Shown: positions 2,131 through 32,686 of the stretch, one piece after another
Position numbering within the stretch: position 1 is the stretch's first letter
Layout: every line of letters begins with the position of its first letter
From: a virus
DNA: 32,816 bases
IMG/VR virus record: IMGVR_UViG_3300048836_000751
Location: 1-32,816 of that record
Direction: 5' to 3' (one strand)
The notes under the pieces: model-generated
What the model was told of the DNA's origin: nothing
What the model saw: only the letters and a program-made list of their open reading frames with translations
Database searches by the model: none
Translations under genes and position numbers: made by a program

Positions 2131-3375
2131 ATGACCTTGCTGCCGCATCTGGCGGCGCGCCTCTTTGGCGTGCCGCTGGCGATCCATCGCCCAAAACTTG
2201 ACGTGATCCTGGCCGTGCTCGGCCCCCGGGTCGGCCTTGCCGATCTGGCCGTCACTCCTGGCTACACGCCGCCCCAACGTCAATCCAGCGCCAACTCCGG
2301 ATCGCCACCCGGCGTGGACGTCATCCCGATCCACGGCACGCTGGTGCGCCGCACCGTGGGGCTGGAAGCCGAATCGGGACTGACCAGCTACACGGGCCTC
2401 GCCGCGCAACTGGACGCCGCCATCGGCAATCCGGCGGTGTCGGCCATCCTGCTCGACATCGATTCGCCCGGTGGCGAGTCTGGCGGTGTGTTCGATCTGG
2501 CCGACCGCATCCGCGCAGCCAGCCAGATCAAGCCGGTCTGGGCCGTGGCCAACGACATGGCCTTCTCGGCCGCCTACGCGCTGGCGTCCGCCGCCAGCCG
2601 GGTGTTCGTCTCGCGCACCGGCGGTGTTGGCTCGATTGGCGTGATCGCAATGCACGTCGACCAGTCCGAGAAGGACGCGCAGGACGGCGTTCATTACACC
2701 GCCGTGTTCGCGGGCGACCGCAAGAACGACCTCAACCCGCACGAGCCGATCTCCAGCGAGGCCCACGCCTTCCTGAAGGTCGAGGTCAATCGCATCTACG
2801 GCCTGTTCGTCGAAACGGTGGCTCGTCACCGGGGCATCGAGGCGTCCGCTGTCCGCGACACCGAAGCCGGTCTGTTCTTCGGGCAGGCCGCCGTCGCCAT
2901 GGGCCTTGCTGACGCCATCGGCACCTTCGACGAGGCGCTGGCGCAATTGCTCGCATCCCTTTCCCCCAACCCGACTCCGGTGGCTCTGGCCACGCGGGCG
3001 GGCTCTTTCAGCAACCACCCCAAGGAGTCATTGATGAATGATCGAACCGACCCCGCTGCTCTTGATCGGCCTCTTGTTGATCCTGCTGGCAGTCCTGCTC
3101 AACCGCCCGCCGCCACGCTAAGCGTGGCCGACGCCGTCGAGATCGCGCAGACCTGCACGCTTGCCGGTCGCACCGACCTGATCGCGGGCTTTCTCGAAGC
3201 CAACACAGCACCCGCCACGGTGCGCAGCCGTCTGCTCTCGGCCAAGGCCGAGGCCAGTCCGGAAATCGTCAGCCGCATCGCGCCTGACGCCTCCCGTCCC
3301 GCACCCGCCAATCCGCTGATCGACGCTGCGAGGAACCTCGCGGCGCAGTCGTCCGCACTGAAGAAGGAGATCTGA
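2131..3375 (+). CDS. S49-family capsid maturation protease with C-terminal scaffold domain (gpC-like)
   Basis: The 414-residue protein carries a ClpP-fold S49 (SppA-like) protease domain at about residues 60-290. The oxyanion-region motif DSPGGE is at 111-116, the likely nucleophile Ser146 is in NDMAFSAAYA, and the likely general base Lys198 is in AGDRKND. The Ser-Lys spacing of 52 is the same as in the lambda gpC dyad. Residues after about 300 are Ala/Pro-rich and acidic and correspond to the scaffold (Nu3) portion. The protein should process procapsid components and itself during head maturation. It lies 10 bases after portal. An internal start at 3034 makes the scaffold alone (separate entry). 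Confidence 0.93.
   Translation: MTLLPHLAARLFGVPLAIHRPKLDVILAVLGPRVGLADLAVTPGYTPPQRQSSANSGSPPGVDVIPIHGTLVRRTVGLEAESGLTSYTGLAAQLDAAIGNPAVSAILLDIDSPGGESGGVFDLADRIRAASQIKPVWAVANDMAFSAAYALASAASRVFVSRTGGVGSIGVIAMHVDQSEKDAQDGVHYTAVFAGDRKNDLNPHEPISSEAHAFLKVEVNRIYGLFVETVARHRGIEASAVRDTEAGLFFGQAAVAMGLADAIGTFDEALAQLLASLSPNPTPVALATRAGSFSNHPKESLMNDRTDPAALDRPLVDPAGSPAQPPAATLSVADAVEIAQTCTLAGRTDLIAGFLEANTAPATVRSRLLSAKAEASPEIVSRIAPDASRPAPANPLIDAARNLAAQSSALKKEI
3034..3375 (+). CDS. Nested scaffold protein (Nu3-like) made from an internal start
   Basis: An ATG at 3034, in frame with the protease gene (codon 302), is preceded by AAGGAG at 3022-3027, 6 bases away. It would give a 113-residue protein consisting only of the C-terminal part of the protease polypeptide. 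Its content (Ala-rich, acidic and helical, ending in a basic KKEI) suits an assembly scaffold. Lambda makes Nu3 from the 3' part of gene C in the same way. The ribosome site is visible; use of this start is inferred from position and precedent. Confidence 0.8.
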   Translation: MNDRTDPAALDRPLVDPAGSPAQPPAATLSVADAVEIAQTCTLAGRTDLIAGFLEANTAPATVRSRLLSAKAEASPEIVSRIAPDASRPAPANPLIDAARNLAAQSSALKKEI

Positions 3376-3376
3376 A

Positions 3377-3757
3377 ATGCCGACCGTTTTCACCGAGGCC
3401 ATGAACCTGGGCGACCTGCTCAAGTTCGAAGCGCCCAACCTGTACTCGCGCGACCGTGTCACCGTGGCCGCAGGCCAGAACCTGCCGCTGGGTACGGTGC
3501 TCGGCATCGTCACCGCCAGTGGCAAATACAAGCAGATCGATCCGTCCGCCGAAGACGGCACGCAGGTCGCCGCAGGCGTGCTGCTGCAGAACTGCGACGC
3601 CACGCTGGCCGACCGTGACAACGGCCTCGTCGTCGCGCGTCACGCCATCGTGTCCGACCACGCACTGCAGTGGCCCGAAGCCATCACCGCCGCCGAGAAA
3701 GCCTCGGCCATTGCCCAGCTCAAGGCGCTGGGCGTCCTCGTCCGTCAAGGAGTCTGA
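3377..3757 (+). CDS. Capsid decoration protein, gpD-like
   Basis: The 126-residue protein has the HDPD-type pattern. An N-terminal extension (EAMNLGDLLKFE) is followed by a beta-rich core containing LPLGTVLGIVTASGKYKQIDP, then AAGVLLQNCDAT and VVARHAIVSD. It ends in a helical stretch (AITAAEKASAIAQLKALG). Proteins of this family trimerise on the expanded capsid and stabilise it against DNA pressure. AAGAAGGAGA just upstream gives a strong ribosome site for high expression, as expected for a protein needed in hundreds of copies. It lies between protease and major capsid genes, as in lambda (C-Nu3-D-E). Confidence 0.92.
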   Translation: MPTVFTEAMNLGDLLKFEAPNLYSRDRVTVAAGQNLPLGTVLGIVTASGKYKQIDPSAEDGTQVAAGVLLQNCDATLADRDNGLVVARHAIVSDHALQWPEAITAAEKASAIAQLKALGVLVRQGV

Positions 3758-3759
3758 CC

Positions 3760-4770
3760 ATGCAGAACATCTTCGAGAACCCGGCGTTTTCGATGTCGGC
3801 GCTGACCGCCGCTATCAACATCCTGCCCAACAACTACGACCGTCTGGCCCAGATGGGGCTGTTCGTCGACCGCCCGCAGCGCTTCCGCTCGATCATCGTC
3901 GAGCAGCAGAACGGCGTGCTGACCTTGCTGCCGACGATGCCCGTGGGCTCGCCCGGCACGGTCGGCATGCGCGGCCAGCGCAACGTGCGCTCGTTCCACA
4001 TCCCGCACATCCCGCACGATGACGTCGTGCTGCCCGAGGAAGTGCAAGGCATCCGCGCCTTCGGTTCGGAGACGGAACTGCAGACGGTGGCGGGCGTGAT
4101 GGCGCAGCACCTGCAGACAATGCGCAACAAGCACGCGATCACCCTGGAGCACCTGCGCTTCGGTGCGCTCAAGGGGCTGATCCTCGATGCCGACGGCAGC
4201 GTGATCTACAACCTCTTCACCGAGTTCGGCATCACGCCGCAGACCTTCGCTTGGGACATCGCCGCGCACGACAGCGCTTTCGACGTCGGCAAGGCCTGCC
4301 GCGACCTGCTTCGCTACGTCGAGGACAACCTGCAGGGCGAGCGGATGACCGGCATCCACGTCCTGGTCGGCAAGGACTTCTTCGAAGCGCTCACGACGCA
4401 CGACGACGTCGTCGCGGCCTACGAGCGCTGGCAGGACGGTCAGGCGTTGCGCACCGATATGCGCTCCGGCTTCACCTTCTGCGGCATCACCTTCGAGGAG
4501 CATCGCGGCCGCGCGACCGCGCCCGGTGGCACGGTGCGCCGCTTCGTCGAGGAGGACGAAGGCCACGCCTTCCCGCTGGGCACGATGGACACCTTCGCCA
4601 CCTACTACGCGCCCGCAGACTTCAACGAGACGGCCAACACGGTGGCGCTGCCGCTCTACGCCAAGCAGGAACCGCGCAAGTTCGACCGGGGCACCGACTT
4701 GCACACGCAGGCCAACCCGCTGCCGCTGTGCCACCGCCCACAGTTGCTGGTGAAGCTGGAGATCGCGTGA
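3760..4770 (+). CDS. Major capsid protein, gpE-like
   Basis: The 336-residue protein is nearly identical in length to lambda gpE (341). The start chosen is ATG 3760, preceded by AAGGAG at 3747-3752. An upstream in-frame ATG at 3670 lies inside the decoration gene and is not credible. Family hallmarks include an N-terminal AINILPNNYDRLAQMGLF segment, FRSIIVEQQNGVLTLLPT, and a C-terminal region with HAFPLGTMDTFATYYAPAD. The product would build the icosahedral head with an HK97-type fold. The stop overlaps the next start (GTGATGG). Confidence 0.95.
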   Translation: MQNIFENPAFSMSALTAAINILPNNYDRLAQMGLFVDRPQRFRSIIVEQQNGVLTLLPTMPVGSPGTVGMRGQRNVRSFHIPHIPHDDVVLPEEVQGIRAFGSETELQTVAGVMAQHLQTMRNKHAITLEHLRFGALKGLILDADGSVIYNLFTEFGITPQTFAWDIAAHDSAFDVGKACRDLLRYVEDNLQGERMTGIHVLVGKDFFEALTTHDDVVAAYERWQDGQALRTDMRSGFTFCGITFEEHRGRATAPGGTVRRFVEEDEGHAFPLGTMDTFATYYAPADFNETANTVALPLYAKQEPRKFDRGTDLHTQANPLPLCHRPQLLVKLEIA

Positions 4771-5072
4771 TGGGCCTCGTCGAACAGGTCTATGCCGCCG
4801 CCACCAACGCGGGCCTGTTGCGCGATTGCCGGTGGCAGCCTGCCGATGGCTCGCCGATGCAGACGCACGCGGTCGGCTTCGCCGCGCCGGACGACACCGT
4901 GTTCGATGGGCTGGCCTCGACCACCGACCACCAGATGTCGTATCCGGCGTCGGTGTTCGTGGGTCTGGCCCTGCGCGACACGGTCGAGATCGGCAGCGTG
5001 CTCTATCAGGTGCGCGACATCCGGGCCGTGGGCGATGGCTCGGAGATGCGCGCCAAGCTCACAAGGCTCTGA
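4770..5072 (+). CDS. Head-tail connector, probably gpFII-like
   Basis: The 100-residue protein starts at the ATG overlapping the capsid gene stop. An earlier in-frame opening inside the capsid gene is a shadow and was not used. The C-terminus (ALRDTVEIGSVLYQVRDIRAVGDGSEMRAKLTRL pattern, beta-strands ending in a Leu) fits small head-tail attachment proteins of the FII type, which cap the portal-gpW complex and dock the tail terminator. Position directly after the major capsid gene supports this. No separate lambda FI homologue is visible between them. Assignment rests on size, order and pattern, without a diagnostic motif. Confidence 0.72.
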   Translation: MGLVEQVYAAATNAGLLRDCRWQPADGSPMQTHAVGFAAPDDTVFDGLASTTDHQMSYPASVFVGLALRDTVEIGSVLYQVRDIRAVGDGSEMRAKLTRL

Positions 5073-5075
5073 CCC

Positions 5076-5522
5076 GTGTCCGGCAACTCGATCCGCGAAC
5101 AGATTCTGCTCGCGGTGATGGCGGCTGTCCGCACGCCGGTGGCATCGCTCGGGGCCACGCTGCACCGCTCGCCCACGGTGGCCATCAGCCGGGAGCAATG
5201 CCCGGCGCTGGTGGTGTTCCCCGAGTCCGAATCCATCACCGAGCGAGCCAACGACCGCGTCACGCGTGAACTGATCGTGCGCCTCGTCGCGCTGGCCCGC
5301 GCGGTACCGCCCGCCATTCCTGAAACCGAAGCCGACCGGCTGCTCACTGCTGCCCACGCCGCGCTGCTGGCCGACCGGAATCTGGGCGGCTTGTGCCTGG
5401 GTATCCGCGAGCAGGAATGCGAATGGGACGTCGAGGACGCCGATGCGGTGGCCGCCACGATCCCGGCGCGTTACGCGATCACCTACCGGACGCTCGACAC
5501 CGACCTTTCAACCAAGGGATGA
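5076..5522 (+). CDS. Tail terminator/completion protein, gpU-like
   Basis: The 148-residue protein starts at GTG 5076, a few bases after the connector stop. It reads IREQILLAVMAAV, then PALVVFPESESI, then a strand-helix RVTRELIVRLVALARA, and finishes with a beta-rich AITYRTLDTDLS. This alternation is typical of siphovirus tail terminators and minor tail protein U, which cap the tube at the correct length and face the head connector. Lambda gpU has a similar length (131). It lies between connector and tail tube genes, where Z and U occur in lambda; no separate Z-like gene is present here, but the 214-residue protein at 7074 might fill that role. Confidence 0.68.
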   Translation: MSGNSIREQILLAVMAAVRTPVASLGATLHRSPTVAISREQCPALVVFPESESITERANDRVTRELIVRLVALARAVPPAIPETEADRLLTAAHAALLADRNLGGLCLGIREQECEWDVEDADAVAATIPARYAITYRTLDTDLSTKG

Positions 5523-5527
5523 CACCC

Positions 5528-5740
5528 ATGACTTCCATCGTTCTGACTCACCCGCATACCCACGCGGGCCAAGCCCACAAAGCGGGCGAACGACTCGATG
5601 TGGATGGCAGCACCGCCGACTGGCTCATCGCCAACGGCATCGCCCGCCACGACCGTCAGCCCGCACCCGTGCCGCAGCCGGAAGGCGACGGCACCCCCAT
5701 CGAACCCAAAACCACCCACCGCAAGGAATCCAAATCATGA
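5528..5740 (+). CDS. Small phage protein of unknown function before the tail tube gene
   Basis: The 70-residue protein begins IVLTHPHTHAGQAHKAGERLDVDGSTADWLIANGIA. It looks like a small beta-grasp or RBS-like module often found in phages at this position, followed by a disordered Pro/Glu/Lys-rich tail. An ATG at 5519 in the same frame would overlap the preceding stop, but the AAGG at 5514-5517 is only one base from it. The ATG at 5528 has proper spacing and was chosen. The stop overlaps the tail tube start (ATGA). Function is unknown; co-translation with the tube suggests a role in tail assembly. Confidence 0.72.
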   Translation: MTSIVLTHPHTHAGQAHKAGERLDVDGSTADWLIANGIARHDRQPAPVPQPEGDGTPIEPKTTHRKESKS

Positions 5741-6489
5741 GCACCTACGCCAGTTTTCAGGGCCGCGTCTTCCTCGGCAAGCGCGACATCGACGGCCTTC
5801 CCATCGAAGTGCGCTCGCCCGGCAACGTCGCCGAGCTCAAGCTCTCGCTCAAGACCGATGTGCTGGAGCACTACGAGAGCCAGACCGGCCAGCGTTCGCT
5901 GGATCACCGGATGGTCAAGCAGAAATCGGCCACCGTGAACCTCACCATCGAGGAGTTCACCAAGGAAAACCTCGCCCTGGCCCTCTACGGCAACCACGTC
6001 ACCGGCAGCACGGGTTCGGTGACCGCCGAACCCATCGGCGGCGCGACGCCCGTCGTCGGCGACCGCTACTTCTTCGCTCACCCGAAGGTGTCGGCGCTGG
6101 TGGTGACCGACTCGGCGGGCACGCCCGCGACGCTGACCGCAGGCACGCACTACACGGCAGACACCGACTTCGGTGCCCTCCAGTTTTTGGATACCACCGG
6201 CTTCACCGCGCCGTTCAATGCCGCCTACAGCTACGGCGTCGCCACCGAGATCGGCATCTTCACGCAGGCGCTGCCCGAGCGGTTCCTGCGCCTGGAAGGC
6301 GTCAACACCGCGCAGGGCAACGCCAAGGTGCTGGTGGAGCTGTACCGCGTGGCCTTCGACCCCTTGAAGGAGATCTCTTTCATCTCGGACGAGTACAACA
6401 AGTTCGAGCTGGAAGGCTCGCTCCTGGCCGACACCACCAAACCCTATGACGCGGTGCTCGGCCAGTTCGGCCGCATCGTGCAGCTGTGA
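5737..6489 (+). CDS. Major tail tube protein, gpV-like
   Basis: The 250-residue protein is close to lambda gpV in length (246). It starts at the ATG overlapping the previous stop, preceded by AAGGAA. It begins with a beta-rich segment (YASFQGRVFLGKRDIDGLPIEV), has VKQKSATVNLTIEEF and a C-terminal section with the repeated strand pattern RVAFDPLKEISFISDEYNKFELEGSLLADTTKP, typical of tail tube proteins. It would polymerise as stacked rings around the tape measure. Its position just before the chaperone pair and tape measure is the usual one. No Ig-like C-terminal domain is visible, unlike lambda gpV. Confidence 0.85.
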   Translation: MSTYASFQGRVFLGKRDIDGLPIEVRSPGNVAELKLSLKTDVLEHYESQTGQRSLDHRMVKQKSATVNLTIEEFTKENLALALYGNHVTGSTGSVTAEPIGGATPVVGDRYFFAHPKVSALVVTDSAGTPATLTAGTHYTADTDFGALQFLDTTGFTAPFNAAYSYGVATEIGIFTQALPERFLRLEGVNTAQGNAKVLVELYRVAFDPLKEISFISDEYNKFELEGSLLADTTKPYDAVLGQFGRIVQL

Positions 6490-6500
6490 GGGGGACTGCC

Positions 6501-6893
6501 ATGAGCGATCTGGAAACCCTCATCCCGCAGGCGGTTGACCTGGTCATCGACGGCGAGCCGCTGGCGATCAAGCCGCTGAAGGTCGGCCAGATGCCCGCCT
6601 TCCTGCGCGCCATCACCCCGGTGATGCAGCAGATCGGCGGCGATGGCATCGACTGGCTGGCGCTGTTCGGCGAGCGCGGCGACGATCTGCTGACGGCGGT
6701 GTCGATTGCTGTCGGCAAACCGCGCGCGTGGGTCGATGAGTTGGCCGCCGACGAGGCGATTCTGTTGGCGGCCAAGGTGATCGAGGTCAACGCCGATTTT
6801 TTTACCCGGACGGTGATGCCTCGGCTCGACAGCCTGATCGTGCAAACGAGCGCAGCGGTGGCCACGGCTGGTTCGACACCGTCCAGCACCTGA
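6501..6893 (+). CDS. Tail assembly chaperone, gpG-like (zero-frame product)
   Basis: The 130-residue protein starts at ATG 6501, after GAGGGGG at 6488-6494; a GTG at 6486 overlapping the tube stop is less likely. It is predominantly helical (VGQMPAFLRAITPVMQQI, DDLLTAVSIAVGKP, DEAILLAAKVIEVNADFF) and acidic, like gpG chaperones that coat the tape measure during tail assembly and are absent from virions. The slippery heptamer at 6797-6803 lies 90 bases before its stop, and a -1 shift there would produce the longer GT form. Located between tail tube and tape measure, with only one minor tail gene in between. Confidence 0.85.
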   Translation: MSDLETLIPQAVDLVIDGEPLAIKPLKVGQMPAFLRAITPVMQQIGGDGIDWLALFGERGDDLLTAVSIAVGKPRAWVDELAADEAILLAAKVIEVNADFFTRTVMPRLDSLIVQTSAAVATAGSTPSST

Positions 6894-7099
6894 TCGCCCA
6901 CGGCCACCGGCTGCCGGACATCCTCGACTACACCCTGGCGCAGGTGCGCGGCTTCGCCGCCGCCACCGCGCGGGAGGACGCCGCACGCGATGCGCGGCTG
7001 CTCTCGCTGATCGCCATTGGCGCACGGGGCGACGCCCGCCACCTCGATCAGACCCTCGACAGGCTACAAGACCATGCGCATCTCGGTTCGCATCGATAG
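6501..7099 (+). CDS. Tail assembly chaperone, gpGT-like -1 frameshift product
   Basis: The -1 frame is open from the slippery site to a TAG at 7097-7099. Reading codon 101 of G and then shifting gives about 199 residues, of which 98 come from the T frame. The T part starts with a polar linker and continues WFDTVQHLIAHGHRLPDI, then DYTLAQVRGFAAATARED, a helix pattern typical of T extensions (a Trp/Phe, a GH, a YTL-x-Q-x-x-x-F). No start codon or ribosome site precedes it, so it can only be made by frameshifting. In lambda the T domain binds the tail tube protein while G binds the tape measure. The end overlaps the next gene by 26 bases. Confidence 0.82.
6797..6803 (+). promoter_or_regulatory. 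Slippery heptamer for programmed -1 frameshift
   Basis: Seven T residues read T_TTT_TTT in the zero frame, followed by ACC. This is the canonical X_XXY_YYZ form for simultaneous -1 slippage of two phenylalanine tRNAs. The run is conspicuous in GC-rich sequence where long T runs are avoided. The -1 frame beyond it has no stop for 98 codons. Confidence 0.85.
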
Positions 7100-21697: not shown

Positions 21698-22588
21698 TTA
21701 GGCCCAAACCTCATCCAGATTCTTCGCCGCCAGCAGCTTTTCCCGAAGCGCGTAGCGGGACGACTGCATATTGACCTCGCTGTTTTCCGGGCGCGGGATC
21801 GGGACAATCGCAGTCGCGGGCCCTTTGAACTTGATCATGTACTTGCCAGTGTCGTTGTAAGGCAGGATGGCGTCGATCTCGGCTATATGGGTAATGGCAG
21901 CTACTGGGGCGACCTGATAGGCAGCGATGAACTTCAGCTTGGAAATGTGCTTCGCGTTGATTCTCACGGCGAACCAGCAGTTCTCATTCAGGAAGCGTTG
22001 CTTGAAACCTTCCTCTCGTGCAGGGACGACGATGGTGTCGAACTTGTCGCTCTCCGACCCCACGGGCTGCACCTGATCGCTCGGGTCTTCCTGCTTCTGC
22101 GGCGTGAACGCGTTGATGCCGAGCATCGGCAGGATCAGCAACATATCGGCCAAAAACGCCTGCGCTGTGGCCTTCGCTGCCGGGGCCATCGTCGGAGCCG
22201 TCGGGTTGTTCTTGTTGAGCAGAATGGCCCGGTCATGCTTCTTGGCCAACGCAACCAGCGCCGACTCCAGGTACTGAACTTCAGTCTTGCCGATTTTGTG
22301 GTTACGGTCGAAGAAGTAGACGCCCCACACCCAACCTTCCTTGTTGGAGACGTGGTTCTTCAGCCGGTCGCCGACGGGGTCGGCCTCGCCGATGTAGATC
22401 GTCTCTTCAGCGGCGTTGCCGACAAGGATGTAGATGCCGGCTTGCGAGAAGCCCGGCTCCTGCCTCAGCAGATGGAAAAGCTCCTTGTTGAAGACGACGC
22501 CGTAGCCCGACCAATTCGATTTGTCGAGGTGGCGAATCGCCTCCGGATCACCGGTCGTAGCGAATAGCGTGATTGAAAATGGCTGCAT
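21698..22588 (-). CDS. GIY-YIG nuclease family protein
   Basis: The 296-residue protein is the last gene of the - strand operon and converges with Rz (42 bases apart). It has an N-terminal extension (NWSGYGVVF...) and then a GIY-YIG domain: G51-I-Y53, Y65-I-G67, Arg75 in DRLKNH, Glu108 in YLES and Asn125 in LLNK, the complete set of catalytic residues. The C-terminal 165 residues are an uncharacterised domain, with a helix near 132-155 and beta-rich stretches (CWFAVRINAKHISKLKFIAAY, HIAEIDAILPY, KYMIKFKGPA) that may bind DNA or protein. A GGGGAG ribosome site precedes the start. The domain cuts DNA in repair, homing and restriction; here a role in cleavage or specificity of the operon is inferred. 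Confidence 0.82.
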   Translation of the reverse strand: MQPFSITLFATTGDPEAIRHLDKSNWSGYGVVFNKELFHLLRQEPGFSQAGIYILVGNAAEETIYIGEADPVGDRLKNHVSNKEGWVWGVYFFDRNHKIGKTEVQYLESALVALAKKHDRAILLNKNNPTAPTMAPAAKATAQAFLADMLLILPMLGINAFTPQKQEDPSDQVQPVGSESDKFDTIVVPAREEGFKQRFLNENCWFAVRINAKHISKLKFIAAYQVAPVAAITHIAEIDAILPYNDTGKYMIKFKGPATAIVPIPRPENSEVNMQSSRYALREKLLAAKNLDEVWA

Positions 22589-22623: not shown

Positions 22624-25600
22624 CTACTTCACCACTTCCATCAATTTCCCGAAGCTGTCGACCACGTCGTACTTGACGTTCTCCGGGGCGAATCGGCGGT
22701 TCATCTCATCAAAGAACTTGCGGGCGCATTTGATCTTCGTTCGCTCGATCTCGCGCAGATCCATCGACGACATTGATCCCTTGGTTTCCGCCACGAAGTA
22801 GATGTGCTTGACCGAGCCATCCTTGAAGGAAATGGCCCAGTCGGGGTTGTAGTCGCCGACCGGGGTCGGGATCAGGAAGCCGCGCGGCAACTTCGCGTAC
22901 ACCACTACTTCGGCGCTGGCCTCAAGCGCCTCGGCAAAATCACGCTCCGGCTTCGACCCTGAGTCCGGCAGCACGAAATCGTAGATGTGGTGCTTGGGCG
23001 TCTTGACTGCGTTGCTGAAGTCTTGCTTGGTTTGCCCGGCGGTAAAGATGTCCAGGTCGAACCTGTCCTCGACTGGGTCGTATGCCAAATGCTCGATGAT
23101 GACGGTGGCCTTCTGCTCGTTGATCAGGCGCACCGCCTCCGCAATGAAACTCTCCGGGTTGGTCTTGAATTGTGCGAATACGGCAGCGTTGAGCCCCTTG
23201 AGAATCTCGACCACCGTGCGCCGCGTCAGTTGGGTGCCTTCGCTCAGCTTGCCGATCACGTCGTACTTGACAGCCGAGTGGATTGAGACGCGGTTGGTTT
23301 CTGTCTCCGTGTCCTTCAATTCGAACGCATTGCCGCCCTTGATGCCGTCGTAGGTCACGGCGGCTGCCTGTTCGCCGTGCTGGATGGTGTACTGCAGCGG
23401 CGTCACTCGAAGCCCAGCATCCTTGTCGTTGAGGGTGTTGACCGCCTTTCGCACCAGTTCGTCGGAGTCGAATGCGACGCTGTACGCCGCCTTGCGATTG
23501 ATTCGACTCCAGAGTTCCTTGAACTCTTGCTTCTCGAAGTTCGTGTTGAGCGGGTTTTTCTTCGGTTTTCGGTCGTCACCAATTTCCGGCAACTGGCCTT
23601 CACTGAAGACACTGTCAATCAGCTTGAAAACCTCCTCGGCGTGCGGCACAAGCTCGGGGGGCAGCGCAGCCAGCGCATCGTCCTTCTTGGCTTCGTGATA
23701 GGCGCTGGTGATGCGATCTGCGTCGTCGGTGTAGTCGTGCTTGAGCAGGTACTTGTAGATCTGCTTCGCAAGCTGCGGCGTGACCTCGACATCGCCAGTC
23801 GCCGTCTTCAGCACCTTGCCGGTGAAGTAGGCCTCGTCCGCTACGCGCGGACGCGCCGACAGCGACTCGCTGATGTCCTTCTGCAGCGCCGCGACAAAGT
23901 CCTTGTAACTCTCGCTGGCCACCACGGTCAGCACATTCACATCGTGTACCGTGGCTGGGTGATCCATACGGTCACCACTCTGGTTCACGGACAGCCGCAT
24001 GCCGCGCCCCACCTCCTGGCGGCGTGAGATGGTGTTGTCGCTGTGCTTGAGCGCGCAGATCACGAAGACGTTCGGGTTGTCCCAGCCTTCGCGCAGGGCT
24101 GAGTGCGAGAAGATGAAACGCACCGGCTCGGCCAGCGACAGCAGGCGCTCCTTGTCCTTCAGGATCAGGTCGTAAGCGTCCACGTCGTCGGACAGCCCGG
24201 CGTTCTCGCCACGCGCGGCAACAGTCGGGTCAACGTCACGCTTGCTCTTCTTGTCGATGGAGAAGTAGCCGCTGTGGGTCTTGTTGGCGGGAATGCCTTT
24301 GAGGTACTTGATGTATGGCGTCTCGTCCAGATCCAGCACCTCGTTGAGGTAGAGCTGGTACTCCTCCTCGAAGATGCGGGCGTACTCGCCCTTCTCGTCT
24401 GGCGAGGCGTAGTCGCGGTACTTGACCACTTCGTCGATGAAGTAGAGCGTCAGCACCTTCACGCCTTGCTGGAACAGCGCCTGTTCTTTGTCGAAGTGCG
24501 CCTTGATCGCCTCACGGATCTGGATGCGGCGCAGCGCGGCTTCGGTCACATCACCAGTCGCATCGCCCACGGTGAGCTCGACCCCATTGGTAAAGCTCAG
24601 GGTGTCGGAGTTGGCGTTGATGTCGGCCACGACAAAGCCATCGCGGTACTGATCGAGCCCGTTGGACAGATCAAACAGGTTATCGCCCTTGGAGAGCTTC
24701 CTCACCGCGCGTTTGATGTTGCCACCCGCCAGCTTCTGCTCGAACTCGACGCGCGCCTCGGGCGGCTTCCTGCTCGAAATCTCGATGGATTGCAGATACA
24801 GATAGCCCGCCGTGCCCGCCAGCCCCTTAACGGCAATGCCGCGCACCGCGATCTTCTTCACCAGTTTTTCGTTGTAGGCGTCCAGCGCGTCCAGACGGTG
24901 AATCTTGTTGTGCGTAGTCTTGTGGGTGGCCGAGTAGCGCAGCACCGTCAAGGCCTTGAACTCCTCCAGCGACCTCAGCGTTGCCGTGCCTTCCATCTTC
25001 TGCGGTTCATCCAGGATCAGGATGGGCCGGTTAGCGCTGATCACGTCGATGGGCTTGCGCGACTGAAAGTCGTCCAACACGTCGTAGATGCGGCGGTTGT
25101 CTGCTCCCCGCGCGGCGAAGGCCTGCACGTTGATCACCATCACGTTGATGCCTGCGTCAGACGAGAAGCTCTCCAGGTTGTGCAGCTGCTTGGAGTTGTA
25201 GATGAAGAAGCGCGCCTTCTTGTGGTACGTCTCCAGGAAGTGCTCGGCCGTGATCTGCAGCGATTTGGCCACGCCTTCACGGATGGCGATGCTGGGCACG
25301 ACGATGATGAACTTACTCCAGCCGTACTGCTTGTTCAGCTCGAAGATCGTCTTGATGTAGCAGTAAGTCTTGCCCGTACCGGTTTCCATCTCGATATCGA
25401 GATTGACCTTTGCAACCCTGGTCTTGACTAGCAGGTCCGACAGCGGCAGGTTTTGCGCCCGTTGCACGTCATGGATGTTGGCAAGCAGGGTCGCATCGGA
25501 CAGCGAAAGGTCGGCGTTCTTGAAGCCAGCCTCGGAAAAGAGGCTGTCCATCCCCGCCTTGGCTTTGCCCGGGTCGACGCGATAACTCATGGCTTCGACG

Positions 25601-25686
25601 GAAGCCGGCGGCTGCCCCTTGAAGCAGTCCACCACTGCTTGAACCGCAGCTGTCTGGTAGGCCTGCGTCTTAAATTTGAATTTCAT
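22624..25686 (-). CDS. Type III restriction-modification Res subunit (DEAD/DEAH helicase-nuclease)
   Basis: About 1020 residues, the usual length of Res. The start is taken at ATG 25686 (MKFKFKTQ...); a GTG at 25689 is an alternative, with AGAGGA upstream. N-terminal SF2 helicase: Walker A ETGTGKT (about 101-107), DEPQ (225-228), SAT (about 251-253), and motif [12 protein letters not shown]. The C-terminal endonuclease has a PD-(D/E)xK-type core with Asp949 (NPDW) and Glu967-Thr-Lys969 (VAETKG). Type III Res translocates along DNA and cuts only with Mod and with two inversely oriented sites. Composition is GC-rich like the flanking genes. Confidence 0.92.
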
Positions 25687-25717
25687 CACTGCATTCCTCT
25701 CAGCACGCCCCTGCTAC

Positions 25718-26389
25718 TCACTGATTGACCTTCATCAACAGGTGCTTCCTAAAATGTTCCATGGACATGACTTCTTGATCAGAGTCGGAAAACTCGACGT
25801 ACAGCTCAACTGATCCTCTGATCTCCTTCTTGGAGATGGCATATCGCTTTTGTGAGTTTGGCTTAATAAAGACGAATTTTTCGACTGGCTTCAAAAAATG
25901 AAGCACGAGCCATACGTCTTCTGTCGGATGATTCTCAGAATATTTAAGCTTGTCAGGCCTCACCCAGTACGTTGTGCCGCGCATGAACTCTGTGCCGGTA
26001 ACTTCAACGAGCAATAGAATTCGCCCGCCTTCTTGAAGTTTCACCTCAAGATCTGGTTTCCCAGCTTCCGTCGGATGCCCTGAAATAAATTGATTCGTGT
26101 CAGCACCAAATCCGACTATCTCAACGAGAACGCGGCCGTCAAAACTCTCGATCAGTTCCTTCACTTTTTGTAATCGAATCTTTTCTTTGTCCCATGCATT
26201 CTGACCATATGCATGCTTCCAATGATGACTTTCAAGCTCCTTTATTTGCTCACAGGAAATCGTTTTGCCGACCTCTAGATCAAGAGCGGGAAACGTCCTT
26301 GCTCGGATACTTGTGCAGTATTCGCCATCAACAAATATCCAGTAGCGTTCGCGATCAGCTTTGAATTCAATACGCGTAATTTTCGGCAT
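25718..26389 (-). CDS. Small protein, possible PD-(D/E)xK-type nuclease, unknown function
   Basis: The 223-residue protein has no clear family. The start is ATG 26389, because GAGGGG lies 6 bases upstream; the ATG at 26395 directly abuts it. The N-terminal 50 residues (MPKITRIEFKADRERYWIFVDGEY, then LEVGKTISCEQIKELE) resemble the N-terminal winged helix of RecX-like proteins. The central region has a beta-strand array VLVEIVGFGAD, PDLEVKL (Asp near 113), ILLLVEVTG (Glu near 129), and two conserved-looking Trp/Lys patches. This could be a divergent PD-(D/E)xK core with Thr where Lys is usual. It is AT-richer than its neighbours and lies between mod and res. Confidence 0.55.
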   Translation of the reverse strand: MPKITRIEFKADRERYWIFVDGEYCTSIRARTFPALDLEVGKTISCEQIKELESHHWKHAYGQNAWDKEKIRLQKVKELIESFDGRVLVEIVGFGADTNQFISGHPTEAGKPDLEVKLQEGGRILLLVEVTGTEFMRGTTYWVRPDKLKYSENHPTEDVWLVLHFLKPVEKFVFIKPNSQKRYAISKKEIRGSVELYVEFSDSDQEVMSMEHFRKHLLMKVNQ

Positions 26390-26405: not shown

Positions 26406-28301
26406 TCATATCACTTTGACTTCGGTTTCTGGGGAGATCACCTTTAAGATTTGCTCGGCGTTAATCTTGGCGGCATCATCCTTAAAGCCTCGATCTCGGA
26501 AGACAACTCTGAGCGGGTGGCCTTTACCGAGCTCCTTGATAAACGCTTCGTCGATTCTTCCGTCGTAATCAAAGCATGCTACTAGTGCATTTTCATCTAC
26601 GAAAAAACACTCTGCCCCACTAATTAATTTCTTGGTGATTGGCAATCCAAGATCAATGCCCCAATCGAGCATCACTTGGAAAAGTAGATCCTCTGCAGTC
26701 CTATCAGACTTGATGTTCTCTACAAATAGGTCGAGGCTGCTGGTTTGAATTGCATCAGGCGAGTAGTAGACATCGGCCATATTTGTTGAATCTACTTTCA
26801 ATACTCGGAATCCGATGTCTTTATTCCATCCCTTGTTTGAGTTGTTTTTTAGAATTTTCTCTCCGGCGCGGCGAATTCTTTCCTTGCTTATGTCCGCAAT
26901 GGTCTGGAATCCATCTTTTTTGGCCTGGCTTGCTGCTTCACAATCCTCGGGAATTTGAATCAGGATGAATCGCACATTAGAGCCGTTGTTTGCATTCATC
27001 GCAAAAACTGCGTGTGCGGTTGTTGCTGATCCGGCAAAGAAATCAAGAACGATGTCCCCATCTTCCAATTGACATTGGGATGCCAGTGAGGAAACAAGCT
27101 GCGTAGACTTGGGGTGCGGGAACAGTTTCGCACCGAAAATGTCTTGAAGTTCTCGCGTTCCTTGTGTGTTCGCTGGTGCCACCAATGAATTCGAGATCTT
27201 ATCTTCTGGTCGAGAAACGATCCAGGTTGAAACAGGAACAGTGTCAAACTTTGCTTCATTTTTGAAGCGCTTGAGCATAGGTCTACCATTCGACGTGGCA
27301 GGGAAAATTACTCTGCCTTCAGCGATTTTTTCAGCCATTGTTTTTCGACTGTACGGCCAGTACCTTCCTTCTGGGGGAAGAAACTGATTACCGGTTTTCG
27401 GGTCAGTTATTGGATAGTGCACATCCCCGCCAGCCTTTCCCGCACTTAAATTATCTGCTTTCCAAGGGCCGCGAGGATCGTTGTCCGGATTGGTGTATCC
27501 ATCGTAGGTGCGCTCTATTCCCGCAAGCCGCCCCTTCGATTTTCCGTAACACAATACGTACTCATGATCAACGCTGGTGTTGTCTACGGAATCCATTGCT
27601 CCGCTCCTTCTTTTCCAGACGAAGGTGCAGTAGAAATTCTGTGATCCAAATATCTCGTCGCAGAGCTCTCTTAAGTTGGCGGCCTCAAAATCGTCTATTG
27701 AGATAAAGATAACCCCGTCATCTCGCAGTAGATTTTTTGCTAATCGAAGCCTTGCAAACATCATGCTTAGCCAGTCAGAATGAAATCGACCGTTAGATTC
27801 TGTATTGGCAACGAGTCGATTTCCGGCTTGATCGATTTGCTTTGAGTTCTCAAAATAGGTGGCGCTGTCTTCTGCGAAATCATCCTCATAAATGAAATCG
27901 CTGCCCGTGTTGTATGGGGGATCGATATAGATCATCTTGACCTTGCCGAGGTAGTTTTCCTGCAGCAACTTCAATGCATCAAGGTTGTCGCCTTCGACGA
28001 AAAGGTTCTTGGTTGTATCGAAGTCCACGCTCTCAGCGCGGGAGGGTCTCAGTGTTTTTGCAATGGGCGCATTGGCCGTGAGGAGTGCCTCGCGCTTGCC
28101 TGGCCAGTTCAGGTGGTAGCGTTCCTGCGGCCCCTCGACAATCGACTCGGCCAGTTCCTGCCGCAACTGGTCAAAATCGACTGCCAGTTTCACGCTACCG
28201 TTTTCACCCTTGGCTTCCCTAACGCAGCCCGGAAACATCTCGCGAATGCGGGCGATGTTTTCCCGCGTGAGATTGGGTGAGTGCATTTTCATTTTTTCCA
28301 T
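26406..28301 (-). CDS. Type III restriction-modification Mod subunit (N6-adenine methyltransferase)
   Basis: The 631-residue protein starts at ATG 28301 after AGAGGA. The beta-class order is seen: catalytic DPPY at 127-130, followed by YNTGSDFIYEDDF, then the AdoMet-binding FFAGSATTAH at 421-430 (second Gly of FxGxG replaced by Ala, which also occurs in other type III Mods). The target recognition domain would lie between, at about 230-400. Residues 1-90 are GC-rich, while the rest is AT-rich, which suggests an exchanged specificity part. It recognises an asymmetric site and methylates one strand, and forms the complex with Res. Confidence 0.93.
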   Translation of the reverse strand: MEKMKMHSPNLTRENIARIREMFPGCVREAKGENGSVKLAVDFDQLRQELAESIVEGPQERYHLNWPGKREALLTANAPIAKTLRPSRAESVDFDTTKNLFVEGDNLDALKLLQENYLGKVKMIYIDPPYNTGSDFIYEDDFAEDSATYFENSKQIDQAGNRLVANTESNGRFHSDWLSMMFARLRLAKNLLRDDGVIFISIDDFEAANLRELCDEIFGSQNFYCTFVWKRRSGAMDSVDNTSVDHEYVLCYGKSKGRLAGIERTYDGYTNPDNDPRGPWKADNLSAGKAGGDVHYPITDPKTGNQFLPPEGRYWPYSRKTMAEKIAEGRVIFPATSNGRPMLKRFKNEAKFDTVPVSTWIVSRPEDKISNSLVAPANTQGTRELQDIFGAKLFPHPKSTQLVSSLASQCQLEDGDIVLDFFAGSATTAHAVFAMNANNGSNVRFILIQIPEDCEAASQAKKDGFQTIADISKERIRRAGEKILKNNSNKGWNKDIGFRVLKVDSTNMADVYYSPDAIQTSSLDLFVENIKSDRTAEDLLFQVMLDWGIDLGLPITKKLISGAECFFVDENALVACFDYDGRIDEAFIKELGKGHPLRVVFRDRGFKDDAAKINAEQILKVISPETEVKVI

Positions 28302-28338: not shown

Positions 28339-29040
28339 TTAGCGGCTCAATTGTTCAAGTTCGGTTTTCAGTTGCCGCAAGGTCGTATTGATCTCGACCT
28401 TGCGGTTGAATTGTTTTTCTTTGGCTAGTCGTGCCTGGGTTTTCTCGACCTCAAGGCGCTTGGCCGCTGCCATCTCGACGCGCGCGATCCAAGCGGGCAA
28501 GGCTTCCTGCGGGCGCGCTGACATCGGCAACAGGCCTTGCAGCAAGGCCGCGTACAGGTGGGCCATGTCGAGAGCCAGCGGCAGGGCGGTCCGAGCGGTG
28601 GCCGCAGGCATCCAGTCGGTGGCGAAGTAGCTGGAAAGCACCCAGCGACCGGCGTCGGCCTCGCTCGGGCGCTTGTAAGCCGCCACCACCTGCGTTCTCG
28701 CCTGATCGCCCTGACCTTGGTTCAATTCGAACAGGATCGGGAACTGCACCGCGCCGTCGATGCAGCGCAGCACGTCTTCGTGCAGTTCGGTGGACTTGAG
28801 CTGCACGCTGAAGATCTGGATCTCTGGTACGCCGGGCCGTGCGGACAGGTTAATGGTCTCCGGGGCGAGCTTGTACTGCCAGACGATCTGCTCCACCTGC
28901 TCCACGAACAGATCCTTCAGCCGAGTGTTGGCCCCGCTGTGCTCGTAGATCTTGTTCTTGGGTATAACGCGCCCAAAGGCTGCCTGCTTGGGGTAGGCAA
29001 TCAGCGCTGCTTGTTGTTGTGTGGTCGCCCCTTGACTCAT
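28339..29040 (-). CDS. DUF4391-like protein
   Basis: The 233-residue protein starts at ATG 29040; the ATGA overlaps the helicase stop, so the longer upstream opening is rejected. It contains IPKNKIYEHSGANTRLKDLFVEQVEQIVWQYKLAPETINL and VQLKSTELHEDVLRCIDGAVQFPILFEL, which match my recollection of DUF4391, a family that is found next to SNF2 helicases and type III-like mod/res genes. The C-terminal 40 residues form a Lys/Glu/Gln coiled coil (EKTQARLAKEKQFNRKVEI...). A partner or coupling role for the helicase is inferred. GC-rich like the helicase. Confidence 0.78.
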   Translation of the reverse strand: MSQGATTQQQAALIAYPKQAAFGRVIPKNKIYEHSGANTRLKDLFVEQVEQIVWQYKLAPETINLSARPGVPEIQIFSVQLKSTELHEDVLRCIDGAVQFPILFELNQGQGDQARTQVVAAYKRPSEADAGRWVLSSYFATDWMPAATARTALPLALDMAHLYAALLQGLLPMSARPQEALPAWIARVEMAAAKRLEVEKTQARLAKEKQFNRKVEINTTLRQLKTELEQLSR

Positions 29041-32000
29041 CCCGCCCCCTGAATCACGAGGAAGCTGATGAGCTCGAAGTCGTCCAGGCCACTGATGGTG
29101 TCGGTCAGCGCGGTGGTCTTGCCGCCGGAGAACAGGCTGTCTAGATCCCTTTCTTCCTTCACCTCGATCATCGAGCGAATGGATTTGCCCAGCAGATCGG
29201 AGTACGGCTGCATCCTGCGGCCATCCGCCGTTTCCTGATTGAAGCGCTGGCACACGTCGACAATGGCCTTGTTCTGGCCTTTACAGCAGGTGCGTACCAG
29301 ATCGAGCAGCCGCTTGACCTCGGTGTGGTCGTGGATGATCTCGCCCTCGCGGTTGATGTAGACGAGGTAGTACGGGTGCAGGCGGTTGTGCTGGTTGAGG
29401 TTGACGCCGGAATTGCGGTTGCGCAACGTGAAGATCGCCCCTGGCCGCAGCCCCATCTCGGGTCTGGCGGGAACGACGGCGTGCATCCCATTGGGCAAAT
29501 TGCTCAGCTCGCCGTGGGCTTTGACGTAGTTGAGCAAGTCCATGCGGAAGTCGTTGAGGCCCAAGTCGGTGATGGAGACACCGGTCTTTAAGTCCTCCAA
29601 CTCGATGACCTCATCCTGCAGCCGACGCAGTTGCTCCTTGCGGTACGACACGTCGTTGGCTTGCGCGGACAGCACGTTGTCATCGCCTGTGGCGGTAACG
29701 TCGGCGATCATCATTCGGCTCTCGACGCGCTCCTTGAGGTTGATGTACTCGTCGAGCGAGATGTCGGGCCAATAGTTGACCAGCTGGATGCTGCTGTTGG
29801 GCGAGCCGATGCGATCCACCCGGCCAAAGCGCTGGATGATGCGTACCGGGTTCCAATGGATGTCGTAGTTGACGACGTAGTCGCAGTCCTGCAGGTTCTG
29901 GCCTTCGGAGATGCAGTCGGTGCCGATCAGTAGATCGACCTCGTGCGGCTCGTCCGGCAGGACCACTGCCTTCTCTTTCGAGCGGGGGGAGAACAGGGTG
30001 AGCAGTTCTTGGAAGTCATAACTGCGCTTCTGCGAGCCGCTCTTGATGGTGGACTGCGGCGCACCCTTGCCGGTGACCTTGGCGGTGTGGATGGCGAGCT
30101 TGGCCTGCAACTCCGGCGCAAGGTTGGCGTACAGGTAATCGGCGGTGTCGGCAAAGGCGGTGAAGATCAGTACCTTCCTGTTGCCGGGGTTGATGGGCTT
30201 TTCAATCTTGCCGAGCAGTTGCGCCTTGAGATGCTGCAACTTGGCATCGTCCTGCGGCGTGATTTTGTTCATCGAGGCCAGCAGCGCATCGATGACCTGC
30301 AAGTCCACCTTGAGTTCGTGCTCCCAGGACGGCAAGTCCATGTCGGCGAGGCTGATCTTGATCTTGCTGCCGATCTCGCCGCCCTCGTCGCCGGGCATGG
30401 GCAGCTCATCGTCCTCTGCATCCAGCCCTTCCAGCACTTCCGTGAGGTCGCCCACCGTGACCGTGCCACCGGATTGATTGAACGCGGCGATCTTTGCGAG
30501 GGTGGCTTCGTTGTTGGCCCGCAGCGATTGCAGCGTTAGCCGGAACGACTGCACCGAACTTTCAAGCCGTTTGAGCAGGTTGACCGTCATCAGGGCCTGC
30601 AGGCTCTTTTCGCGATCGGCTTGGCGCAGCGTGCCCTTGCCGCCTACCTTGGTGTCGTAGATCTCCTCGTACTTCTTTAGACGGCTGGGCAGGATGTAGC
30701 TGATGGGCGCATACACGGCCAGCTTGAGCAGGGAGAGTTGCTCGAAAATTTCGTTGAAGCCCAACACGTCCGACCGCTCGGTCAACGGGCAGTGAAACGA
30801 CAGCGGTTTGCGGCGCTCCGGAAATTGACCGATGTCCTTGGTGTCGTAGAAGGTCTGGATGTGCTTACGCGAGCGTGCGATGGTGACGCTGTCGAGCAGC
30901 TCGAAGAAGTCGAAGTCCAGTGAGTCGAGGATCGCACGCGCGGTACGTTCTTCCGGGGGGAGCTTCGACCACGCATTGAAGGCTGCTTGTGCGCCTCGGA
31001 AAATCTCCTCGACGCTTCTGTCCGTGCGCAGCTTTTTTGTGAGGTTTTCGGAGTCGCCTTCGTAGGCCAGGGCCAGTTGGTTGCGCAAGTCGGTAAAGCG
31101 GTTGTTGACTGGCGTGGCCGACAACATCAGCACCTTGGTCTTGACCCCTTCCTGGATCACCTTGCGCATCAGCTTCTGGTATCGGGTTTCCTTATCCTTG
31201 TAGGCGTCGTTGTTGCGGAAGTTGTGCGACTCGTCGATGACGACGAGGTCGTAGTTGCCCCAGTTGATGCGGTTTAGCGGTGTACCGAAGGACTCGCCGC
31301 TGGTGCGGGACAGATCCGTGTGGCAGAGAACGTCGTAGTTGAACCGGTCGCGGGCGAAGATGTTGGTCTTGAGGTTGCGGTTGTAGTTCAGCCAGTTGTC
31401 CGCCAGCTTCTTGGGGCAGAGCACCAGCACTGACCGGTTTCGCAGCTCGTAATACTTGATGACGGCCAGTGCGGTGAAGGTCTTACCCAAGCCGACGCTG
31501 TCTGCAAGGATGCAACCGCTGTAGGTTTCCAGCTTGTTGATGATCCCGGTGGCAGCATCCTTCTGGTAGTTGAAGAGCTTGTTCCAGATCAGGGTGTCCT
31601 GGTAGCCGGTGCGGTCGTTGGGCAGGACGTCTTCGTCGATCTCGTCTAGGAACTCGTTGAAGATGTTGTAGAGCATCAGGAAGTAGATGCTTTCGGGAGA
31701 GTTCTCTTGGTAGACCGAGGCGATGTGCTCGCAAATCTGCGCTGTCACATCCTCCAGCTTTTCGGGGTCGTTCCAGATCTGATCGAACAGGCTCAGGTAC
31801 GTGGCGGCAAATGGTGCCTCGTCCATCTTGTTGACGAGGTTGGATACCGCATTGCCTTGCTGGTAACCGAGATCGACAGCCGTGAACCCGTGCAGGGGCA
31901 TGTAAGCCGTGTCGGTACCGCCAGCCTGCACGCAGGCGAACTGCTGCATCGGCGCTTTGGTGCGGTTGCTCTTGAACTTGGCCTTGCGCTGTATCCAGTC

Positions 32001-32327
32001 GGCGCATTCCTTGGCCACCGCCCGCTGGGTGAGCTTGTTGCGCAACTGGATTTCAAACTCGCTGCCGTAGAGGCTGCGCTCCCGGTCGAGTTTGGGAATG
32101 TGGAATTCCTTACGCTCCTTGCGAATCTTGTCGGCGACCTCGTTGGCAACAAAGGTGGGCGAGGTGAAGATGAAGTTCAGCTCGTCGATTTTTTCCAGCT
32201 CGGCTTTCAACGCCTCGAAGGCGTACATCGAAAAGCACGAGGCCGCTACCTTGAGCCGCGCCCCTGGCCGGAGGGTTTGCTTGAGGTCGTCGCCCAACAG
32301 GCGGCTGATGTTGTCGATCAGTTCCAT
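29037..32327 (-). CDS. SNF2-family helicase with degenerate PLD-like N-terminus
   Basis: The 1096-residue protein starts at ATG 32327, overlapping the stop of the HTH gene (TGATG); a longer in-frame opening inside that gene is not used. Residues about 1-200 follow the PLD-like pattern seen on this helicase type, but the site at 145-148 reads L-H146-G-F instead of HxK. SF2 helicase: Walker A ADSVGLGKT (275-283), DESH (365-368), LSATP, and, in the second lobe, LIFTAFADTADYLY, DLLIGTDCISEGQNLQ and IIQRFGRVDRIGS. The C-terminal 250 residues carry GLRPGAIFTLRNR and HPYYLVYINREGEI. It should remodel DNA or displaced nucleoproteins; partnership with DUF4391 is inferred. Confidence 0.88.
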   Translation of the reverse strand: MELIDNISRLLGDDLKQTLRPGARLKVAASCFSMYAFEALKAELEKIDELNFIFTSPTFVANEVADKIRKERKEFHIPKLDRERSLYGSEFEIQLRNKLTQRAVAKECADWIQRKAKFKSNRTKAPMQQFACVQAGGTDTAYMPLHGFTAVDLGYQQGNAVSNLVNKMDEAPFAATYLSLFDQIWNDPEKLEDVTAQICEHIASVYQENSPESIYFLMLYNIFNEFLDEIDEDVLPNDRTGYQDTLIWNKLFNYQKDAATGIINKLETYSGCILADSVGLGKTFTALAVIKYYELRNRSVLVLCPKKLADNWLNYNRNLKTNIFARDRFNYDVLCHTDLSRTSGESFGTPLNRINWGNYDLVVIDESHNFRNNDAYKDKETRYQKLMRKVIQEGVKTKVLMLSATPVNNRFTDLRNQLALAYEGDSENLTKKLRTDRSVEEIFRGAQAAFNAWSKLPPEERTARAILDSLDFDFFELLDSVTIARSRKHIQTFYDTKDIGQFPERRKPLSFHCPLTERSDVLGFNEIFEQLSLLKLAVYAPISYILPSRLKKYEEIYDTKVGGKGTLRQADREKSLQALMTVNLLKRLESSVQSFRLTLQSLRANNEATLAKIAAFNQSGGTVTVGDLTEVLEGLDAEDDELPMPGDEGGEIGSKIKISLADMDLPSWEHELKVDLQVIDALLASMNKITPQDDAKLQHLKAQLLGKIEKPINPGNRKVLIFTAFADTADYLYANLAPELQAKLAIHTAKVTGKGAPQSTIKSGSQKRSYDFQELLTLFSPRSKEKAVVLPDEPHEVDLLIGTDCISEGQNLQDCDYVVNYDIHWNPVRIIQRFGRVDRIGSPNSSIQLVNYWPDISLDEYINLKERVESRMMIADVTATGDDNVLSAQANDVSYRKEQLRRLQDEVIELEDLKTGVSITDLGLNDFRMDLLNYVKAHGELSNLPNGMHAVVPARPEMGLRPGAIFTLRNRNSGVNLNQHNRLHPYYLVYINREGEIIHDHTEVKRLLDLVRTCCKGQNKAIVDVCQRFNQETADGRRMQPYSDLLGKSIRSMIEVKEERDLDSLFSGGKTTALTDTISGLDDFELISFLVIQGAG

Positions 32328-32530
32328 CAGTCGCTTGCCCCCGAATCCTTGTTGGTCAGATTGGCGGCAATCCATTCGTCCAGATCGCTGCGGCGAAAGC
32401 GCCACGTACCCCCCAGCTTGAACGCGGGGAGCTTGCCTTCGGCCGCGAGGCGGTAGACGGTGCGCTTGCCAGCCTTCAAGTAGGCGGCCACCTCGTCCAG
32501 GGTCAGGATTTCACCTTCCGGGTCTGCCAT
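32327..32530 (-). CDS. Excisionase-type helix-turn-helix DNA-binding protein
   Basis: The 67-residue protein is a single MerR/excisionase-like HTH_17 domain: LTLDEVAAYLKAGKRTVYRLAAEGKLPAFKLGGTWRFRRSDLDEWI (about residues 9-54), with the wing after GGTWRF. It is the first gene of the operon, with TGATG coupling to the helicase. Such proteins bind DNA through a winged HTH, often at direct repeats, and may act as regulator or recombination directionality factor. Here the 10-bp-spaced TTGCCAA repeats in the leader are attractive operators. A longer in-frame extension to the right is not supported. Confidence 0.85.
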   Translation of the reverse strand: MADPEGEILTLDEVAAYLKAGKRTVYRLAAEGKLPAFKLGGTWRFRRSDLDEWIAANLTNKDSGASD

Positions 32531-32540
32531 CGTCTCGCCT

Positions 32541-32577
32541 TTGCCGATGATGAATAGGGATTGCCAAGAGTTGCCAA
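32541..32577 (-). promoter_or_regulatory. TTGCCAA direct repeats in the operon leader, candidate operator
   Basis: TTGCCAA occurs at 32561-32567 and 32571-32577, exactly one helical turn apart, and a near copy TTGCCGA is at 32541-32547, in the same 10-bp phase. On the - strand they read TTGGCAA, just upstream of the HTH gene start (32530). Candidate binding site for the HTH protein. No clear -35/-10 pair with good spacing was found. Confidence 0.5.
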
Positions 32578-32686
32578 TTTTCCCATATGACGGCGAACTA
32601 GGCCAGAGGCTAGGCGAAGAAAAGAACGGCCAAATCGTTGAATCCACGCCCTCAAGGCCAAGGCGTTACCATCTGGCTTGGGTTAC

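Follow-up and report, generated by a model that had tools for sequence, protein, structure and literature searches.

In an extended type III R-M operon carried by a phage, an open reading frame between mod and res was found to encode a 223-residue protein, which we lean towards reading, on its predicted structure, as an accessory DNA nuclease carried in a cargo slot between the two genes. The protein, named X here (26389-25718, minus strand), combines a RecX-type head with a predicted PD-(D/E)xK-like domain. The window is the entire 32,816-nucleotide stretch that was analyzed, and its source record, IMGVR_UViG_3300048836_000751, is a virus contig. No match to X was obtained in the copies of Pfam, PADLOC, and PHROGs used in this study. 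Its domain architecture, with the RecX-type head placed on an Hjc-shaped domain that carries an E-x-T/S motif, is best read from the model as new. Loci compared with the window are referred to by L numbers.

The operon follows the order MAD1-like HTH, SNF2 helicase, DUF4391, Mod, X, Res, and GIY-YIG-like protein (Table 1). Its type III membership was indicated by full-length matches to the PADLOC MTase_III and REase_III models, with X lying between the two matched genes. The rest of the window encodes phage portal, capsid, tail, and lysis proteins, as read from the ORF translations, and the core operon order was also found on plasmids and in the genomes of many bacteria.

Table 1. Features of the operon and of X in the window.
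Feature	Coordinates	Strand	Remarks
HTH_17 / MAD1-like regulator, operon head	32327..32647	-	
SNF2-like helicase	29037..32327	-	ORF open to 32405; homology starts at 32327
DUF4391 protein	28339..29040	-	
mod, type III methyltransferase	26406..28301	-	TRD about 27042-27626 (residues 226-420)
X, RecX-N-like and PD-(D/E)xK-like, 223 aa	25718..26389	-	ATG at 26389, stop 25718-25720
X residues 1-56, RecX-type N-terminal domain	26222..26389	-	NCBIfam RecX E 4.2e-6; 3d5l Z 7.7
X residues 63-223, PD-(D/E)xK-like domain, Hjc/D212-like in model	25721..26203	-	pLDDT 82; Z 9-11
K111-P112-D113-L114, 'PD' metal-ligand motif	26048..26059	-	Invariant in six homologues
E129-V130-T131, E-x-T/S replacing E-x-K	25997..26005	-	
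Y141-W142-V-R144-P-D146-K147, largely invariant block at start of next helix	25949..25969	-	
res, type III helicase-endonuclease	22624..25689	-	
GIY-YIG-like protein (PADLOC PDC-S14), operon end	21698..22588	-	

X is a genuine gene under strong purifying selection. It is separated from mod by 16 bp and from res by about 30 bp, and each start has a plausible Shine-Dalgarno stretch. Between the window and the homologous locus L002, X showed a pN of 0.063 and a pS of 0.58, and its dN/dS of 0.06 is comparable to that of res (0.045). The GC content was 44.8% for X, 47.9% for mod, and 59.0% for res, in agreement with the AT-rich cassette described in a first-pass annotation of this DNA, which had taken the shared composition as a hint that X is tied to Mod specificity. 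That hint did not hold: mod is likewise low in GC relative to res in loci L005, L033, and L034, which contain no X, and shared AT-richness therefore cannot be taken as evidence for a joint movement of X and the TRD.

The N-terminal region of X is homologous to the N-terminal domain of RecX, as profile comparisons show. NCBIfam RecX models matched residues 1-55, with an E-value of 4.2e-6 for residues 1-83. The top PDB profile match was RecX 3d5l, the sole match of one X profile and the best of five for another, with E-values that are weak when taken alone. An HMM built from residues 1-60 of six homologues matched 15 proteins of Bacteroidota genomes, and all three of those checked were RecX proteins with all of their repeats. 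The structural model of X also superposed on 3d5l over 56 residues (Z 7.7, rmsd 2.4 A), and the identity to this Firmicutes/Bacteroidota-type domain is 25% over residues 1-56. The resemblance to RecX proposed in the first-pass annotation was thus borne out, but its description as a winged helix was ruled out by the AlphaFold2 model, where residues 1-56 form a beta-rich arrangement of three strands followed by a helix.

The remainder of RecX consists of three tandem three-helix repeats, which were searched for in X (PF21982, PF02631, and PF21981) and not found, although the RecX proteins with the same head contain them. X is therefore not a RecX. That X might serve the phage as a RecX-like regulator of RecA or the SOS response, as its N-terminal domain could suggest, is very improbable given the missing repeats and the nuclease shape predicted for the rest of the protein.

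A PD-(D/E)xK alpha/beta core with a central sheet, also suspected in the first-pass annotation, is supported for the C-terminal domain by the predicted structure. A first AlphaFold2 model from four close sequences reached a pLDDT of 48 and was usable only for residues 1-50; with the L113 and L140 homologues added, a second model, built with five homologues, reached a pLDDT of 82.3 and a pTM of 0.73. Its best structural matches were fuselloviral D212 (Z 10.9), the archaeal Holliday-junction resolvases Hjc and Hje (Z 9-10.4), and the SPARDA nuclease (Z 8.5-9.7), followed by a weaker match to RecU (Z 7.0). According to the VIA-align tool itself, models without a clear match typically reach a best Z of 7-8, so that the D212, Hjc, Hje, and SPARDA matches stand above background. 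A Z of 8 was set as the lower limit for using a match; exceptions were made for RecX, which has sequence support, and for RecU, which is quoted only as a weaker match. Phage and archaeal virus proteins of Hjc/D212-like shape matched the model as well, while Foldseek gave an E-value of only 8e-4 against Hjc. Comparison of the X profile with Pyrococcus furiosus Hjc by hhalign revealed no sequence similarity (probability 1.2%, 16 columns), and no Pfam match placed X in the Hjc/Hje sequence family. Hence, the likeness to Hjc would reflect a shared fold and not family membership.

The predicted active site retains two of the expected residues. Asp113, in KPDL (within PDLEV), and Glu129, in E-V-T/S-G-T-E (within VEVTG), had been singled out in the sequence of X and were found to be invariant in all six sequences compared, the five homologues being 40-87% identical to X. 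Residue 131 is Thr or Ser in all six and never Lys, which indicates a loss of the motif lysine. Lys111, Lys147, Tyr141, Arg144, Asp146, Tyr150, His105, and Glu108 are also invariant, and Lys147 lies in the model at the start of the helix that follows the Glu129 strand. In the PD-(D/E)xK nuclease of influenza PA, the catalytic Lys134 is located on a helix, and the superfamily shows no fixed position for this lysine (PMC3893164). By analogy, Lys147 may be the displaced catalytic lysine of X.

A catalytically dead PD-(D/E)xK protein, acting as an adaptor that serves Mod or Res in DNA binding or assembly, would also lack the ExK lysine. Moreover, the equivalent of the catalytic helix Glu of Hjc appears to fall at about residue 73, which is Leu or Ile; this register was derived from the starts of four resolvase alignments and from the residue numbers of the catalytic Glu in these enzymes. 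In the same register, the invariant Glu69 is one turn before residue 73. We consider the loss of activity to be quite unlikely, as invariance of Asp113, Glu129, and several charged site residues down to 40% identity is unusual for a dead site, and homologues exist without an adjacent Mod or Res.

Homologues of X were few and occurred in three different settings. The closest, in L002 and L003 (87% identical) and L004 (71%), occupy the corresponding position in this operon on other phage contigs. More distant homologues were found in L113 (55%), L140 (51%), and L136 (40-41%). Those in L113 and L140 came from motif-steered scans of viral contigs, in which artificial rows served only to choose search patterns, and the one in L136 was the single find of a profile search in a class-level sample of 360 genomes. 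In L136, the X homologue is preceded by an MT-A70 methylase gene, at a distance of 1 bp. In L140 (2880-5957), a phage family-B DNA polymerase carries the X domain at its N-terminus and is encoded behind an SNF2 helicase gene. A type III Mod was not present beside either of these two homologues in the contigs seen. The family thus occurs as cargo of type III R-M operons, next to an MT-A70 methylase, and as part of a phage DNA polymerase.

Searches of other collections yielded no further members. Nothing relevant was obtained by tblastn with X and the L136 and L140 homologues against phages and plasmids, and profile searches with X were negative in 399 genomes of Burkholderiales, in 398 other genomes of the same phylum, and in another class-level sample of 194 genomes. 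An initial scan of genome contigs found no relative, and further motif-steered scans of viral contigs added none to L113 and L140. Two candidate matches were rejected, one for its broken reading frame (L139) and the other as an unrelated protein (L154).

The polymerase fusion points to replication and not to restriction, which favors a general DNA-processing role and keeps a further explanation alive. X might be a Hjc- or RecU-like nuclease that processes junctions or ends in replication or recombination, is mobile among phages, and entered the slot by gene traffic only. The nearest folds, namely Hjc, Hje, and RecU, as well as the RecX-type head, would suit such a function. However, X lacks the lysine of the Hjc motif, Holliday junctions were not cut by the full-length form of D212, its closest structural match (PMC4187194), and in all four type III loci that carry it X lies in this slot together with one and the same TRD family. 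In L136, moreover, the homologue follows a methylase gene. This explanation appears possible but fairly unlikely. For an accessory nuclease, the same methylase gene was counted as favorable evidence.

The slot itself was also found to hold other genes. The first-pass annotation had regarded the order of mod and res as normally uninterrupted. This is only partly true: although most loci have a gap of 1-46 bp, other genes fill it in at least 13 loci that lack X, and a separation of mod and res is common rather than rare in operons of this kind. The varied content marks the gap as a cargo slot. YhcG/DUF1016 nucleases were found in L033, L066, and L085, as well as in L165 by inspection of the sequence, and RhuM was found in L074, while L086 and L101 hold sequences that look like it. 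Other cargo included Abi_C (L105), a PLD-like protein (L027), an AAA protein with DUF4276 (L006 and L012), and a Schlafen-AlbA_2 protein (L009 and L010, with a look-alike in L162). A sample of 11 complete operons from Burkholderiales contained nine without cargo, two with other cargo, and none with X. The presence of YhcG nucleases of the PD-(D/E)xK type and of abortive-infection type genes in the same slot was counted in favor of X being an accessory nuclease.

A second slot was observed between DUF4391 and Mod in L008, L012, L165, and L167-L169, which in L008 contains an annotated ATP-dependent endonuclease and a DUF2130 protein. In addition, a 263-aa ORF in the mod-res gap of L096 (6244-7035) has a possible nuclease-like motif and is unrelated to X.

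The type III loci that carry X (the window, L002, L004, and L113) all belong to one TRD family. TRD identity to the window was 97% in L002, 88% in L004, and 58% in the second Mod (Mod2) of L113, and all other TRDs compared were 16-37% identical, with the exception of two loci without X. In Polynucleobacter sinensis (L034), the TRD is 86% identical and the slot is empty, and in Pusillimonas minor (L033) the TRD is 83% identical and the slot holds a YhcG nuclease. Since the window, L002, and L004 share nearly the whole operon, they are not independent, and L113 provides the independent case: of its two mod genes, the one encoding Mod2 stands directly ahead of X, with Res coming next, and the TRD of Mod1 is unrelated (24%).

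As judged from these comparisons, the association is one-sided, in that X implies the TRD family in type III loci but the TRD does not need X. The earlier suggestion that X is tied to Mod specificity is thus half supported; an obligate link is ruled out by L033 and L034, whose TRDs are closer than that of L113, and X does not always travel with the same Mod, as some homologues have no type III Mod beside them in the contigs seen. In L113, the placement of X after the Mod copy with the shared TRD, and not after the other copy, was counted for an accessory nuclease. The lost motif lysine, a fold taken from a model of five sequences and unmatched by sequence similarity to P. furiosus Hjc, the polymerase fusion, and the loci with closer TRDs but no X were counted against it. 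So was the fact that type III Mod enzymes mark one strand: host DNA that has just been replicated would be at risk from a simple enzyme that cuts the same sequence wherever it is unmarked.

If X is an accessory nuclease, its metal ligands would be Asp113 and Glu129, and one of two invariant lysines, Lys147 or Lys111 beside the PD motif, would probably take the place of the lost ExK lysine. The RecX-type domain would probably help X to engage DNA or a partner. Most likely, X would cut invading DNA that is unmarked by Mod, or would act as a second-line effector upon failure of restriction. If X were safe only in cells whose DNA carries the mark of that particular Mod, the one-sided link between X and the TRD would follow.

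A stricter version of this dependence, in which X would be a restriction endonuclease and would share the mark that it reads with the adjacent type III Mod, is unlikely. A single Mod would then guard against both Res and X, and the MT-A70 methylase with its X homologue would represent a stand-alone version.

As an accessory nuclease, X would differ from the known systems that it most resembles. It shares a predicted core fold (Z 9-10.9) and the order of the PD and Glu motifs with Hjc/Hje and D212, but it has Thr or Ser for the catalytic Lys, the RecX-type head, and an insertion of about 20 residues ahead of the PD motif. The nuclease domain of SPARDA, a short Argonaute system in which it is an anti-phage effector, belongs to the same fold class, but X has no Argonaute or APAZ part and its gene context differs. 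The YhcG/DUF1016 cargo, a predicted nuclease, shares the slot and the kind of operon with X but is unrelated in sequence and domain architecture. R-M operons are already known to carry accessory effectors, PrrC/RloC and RhuM among them (Anantharaman et al. 2013, PMC3710099); these are RNA- or protein-directed toxins, in contrast to the DNA nuclease that X is predicted to resemble.

X adds a nuclease-like family that occurs in three unlike settings. An active X would illustrate how effectors are added to R-M operons, and whether it is possible for a cargo nuclease to be dependent on one particular Mod specificity. The mod-res slot is also a practical place to search for further accessory genes.

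Several other rearrangements were observed in these operons. In L113 (3589-6675), and also in L157, an orphan protein, Mod2, and X are located between Mod1 and Res. The orphan of L113 is a 160-aa ORF conserved over about 111 aa, and a relative of it precedes Mod in L033 (6989-7324). In the same L033 operon (3049-6956), the SNF2 helicase is shortened after about 155 residues, and an AAA ATPase and a subtilisin-like protease replace the rest of the helicase and DUF4391. Finally, the GIY-YIG-like protein of the window is 96% identical to its copy in L004, compared with 83% for Res, which suggests that the two were exchanged separately.
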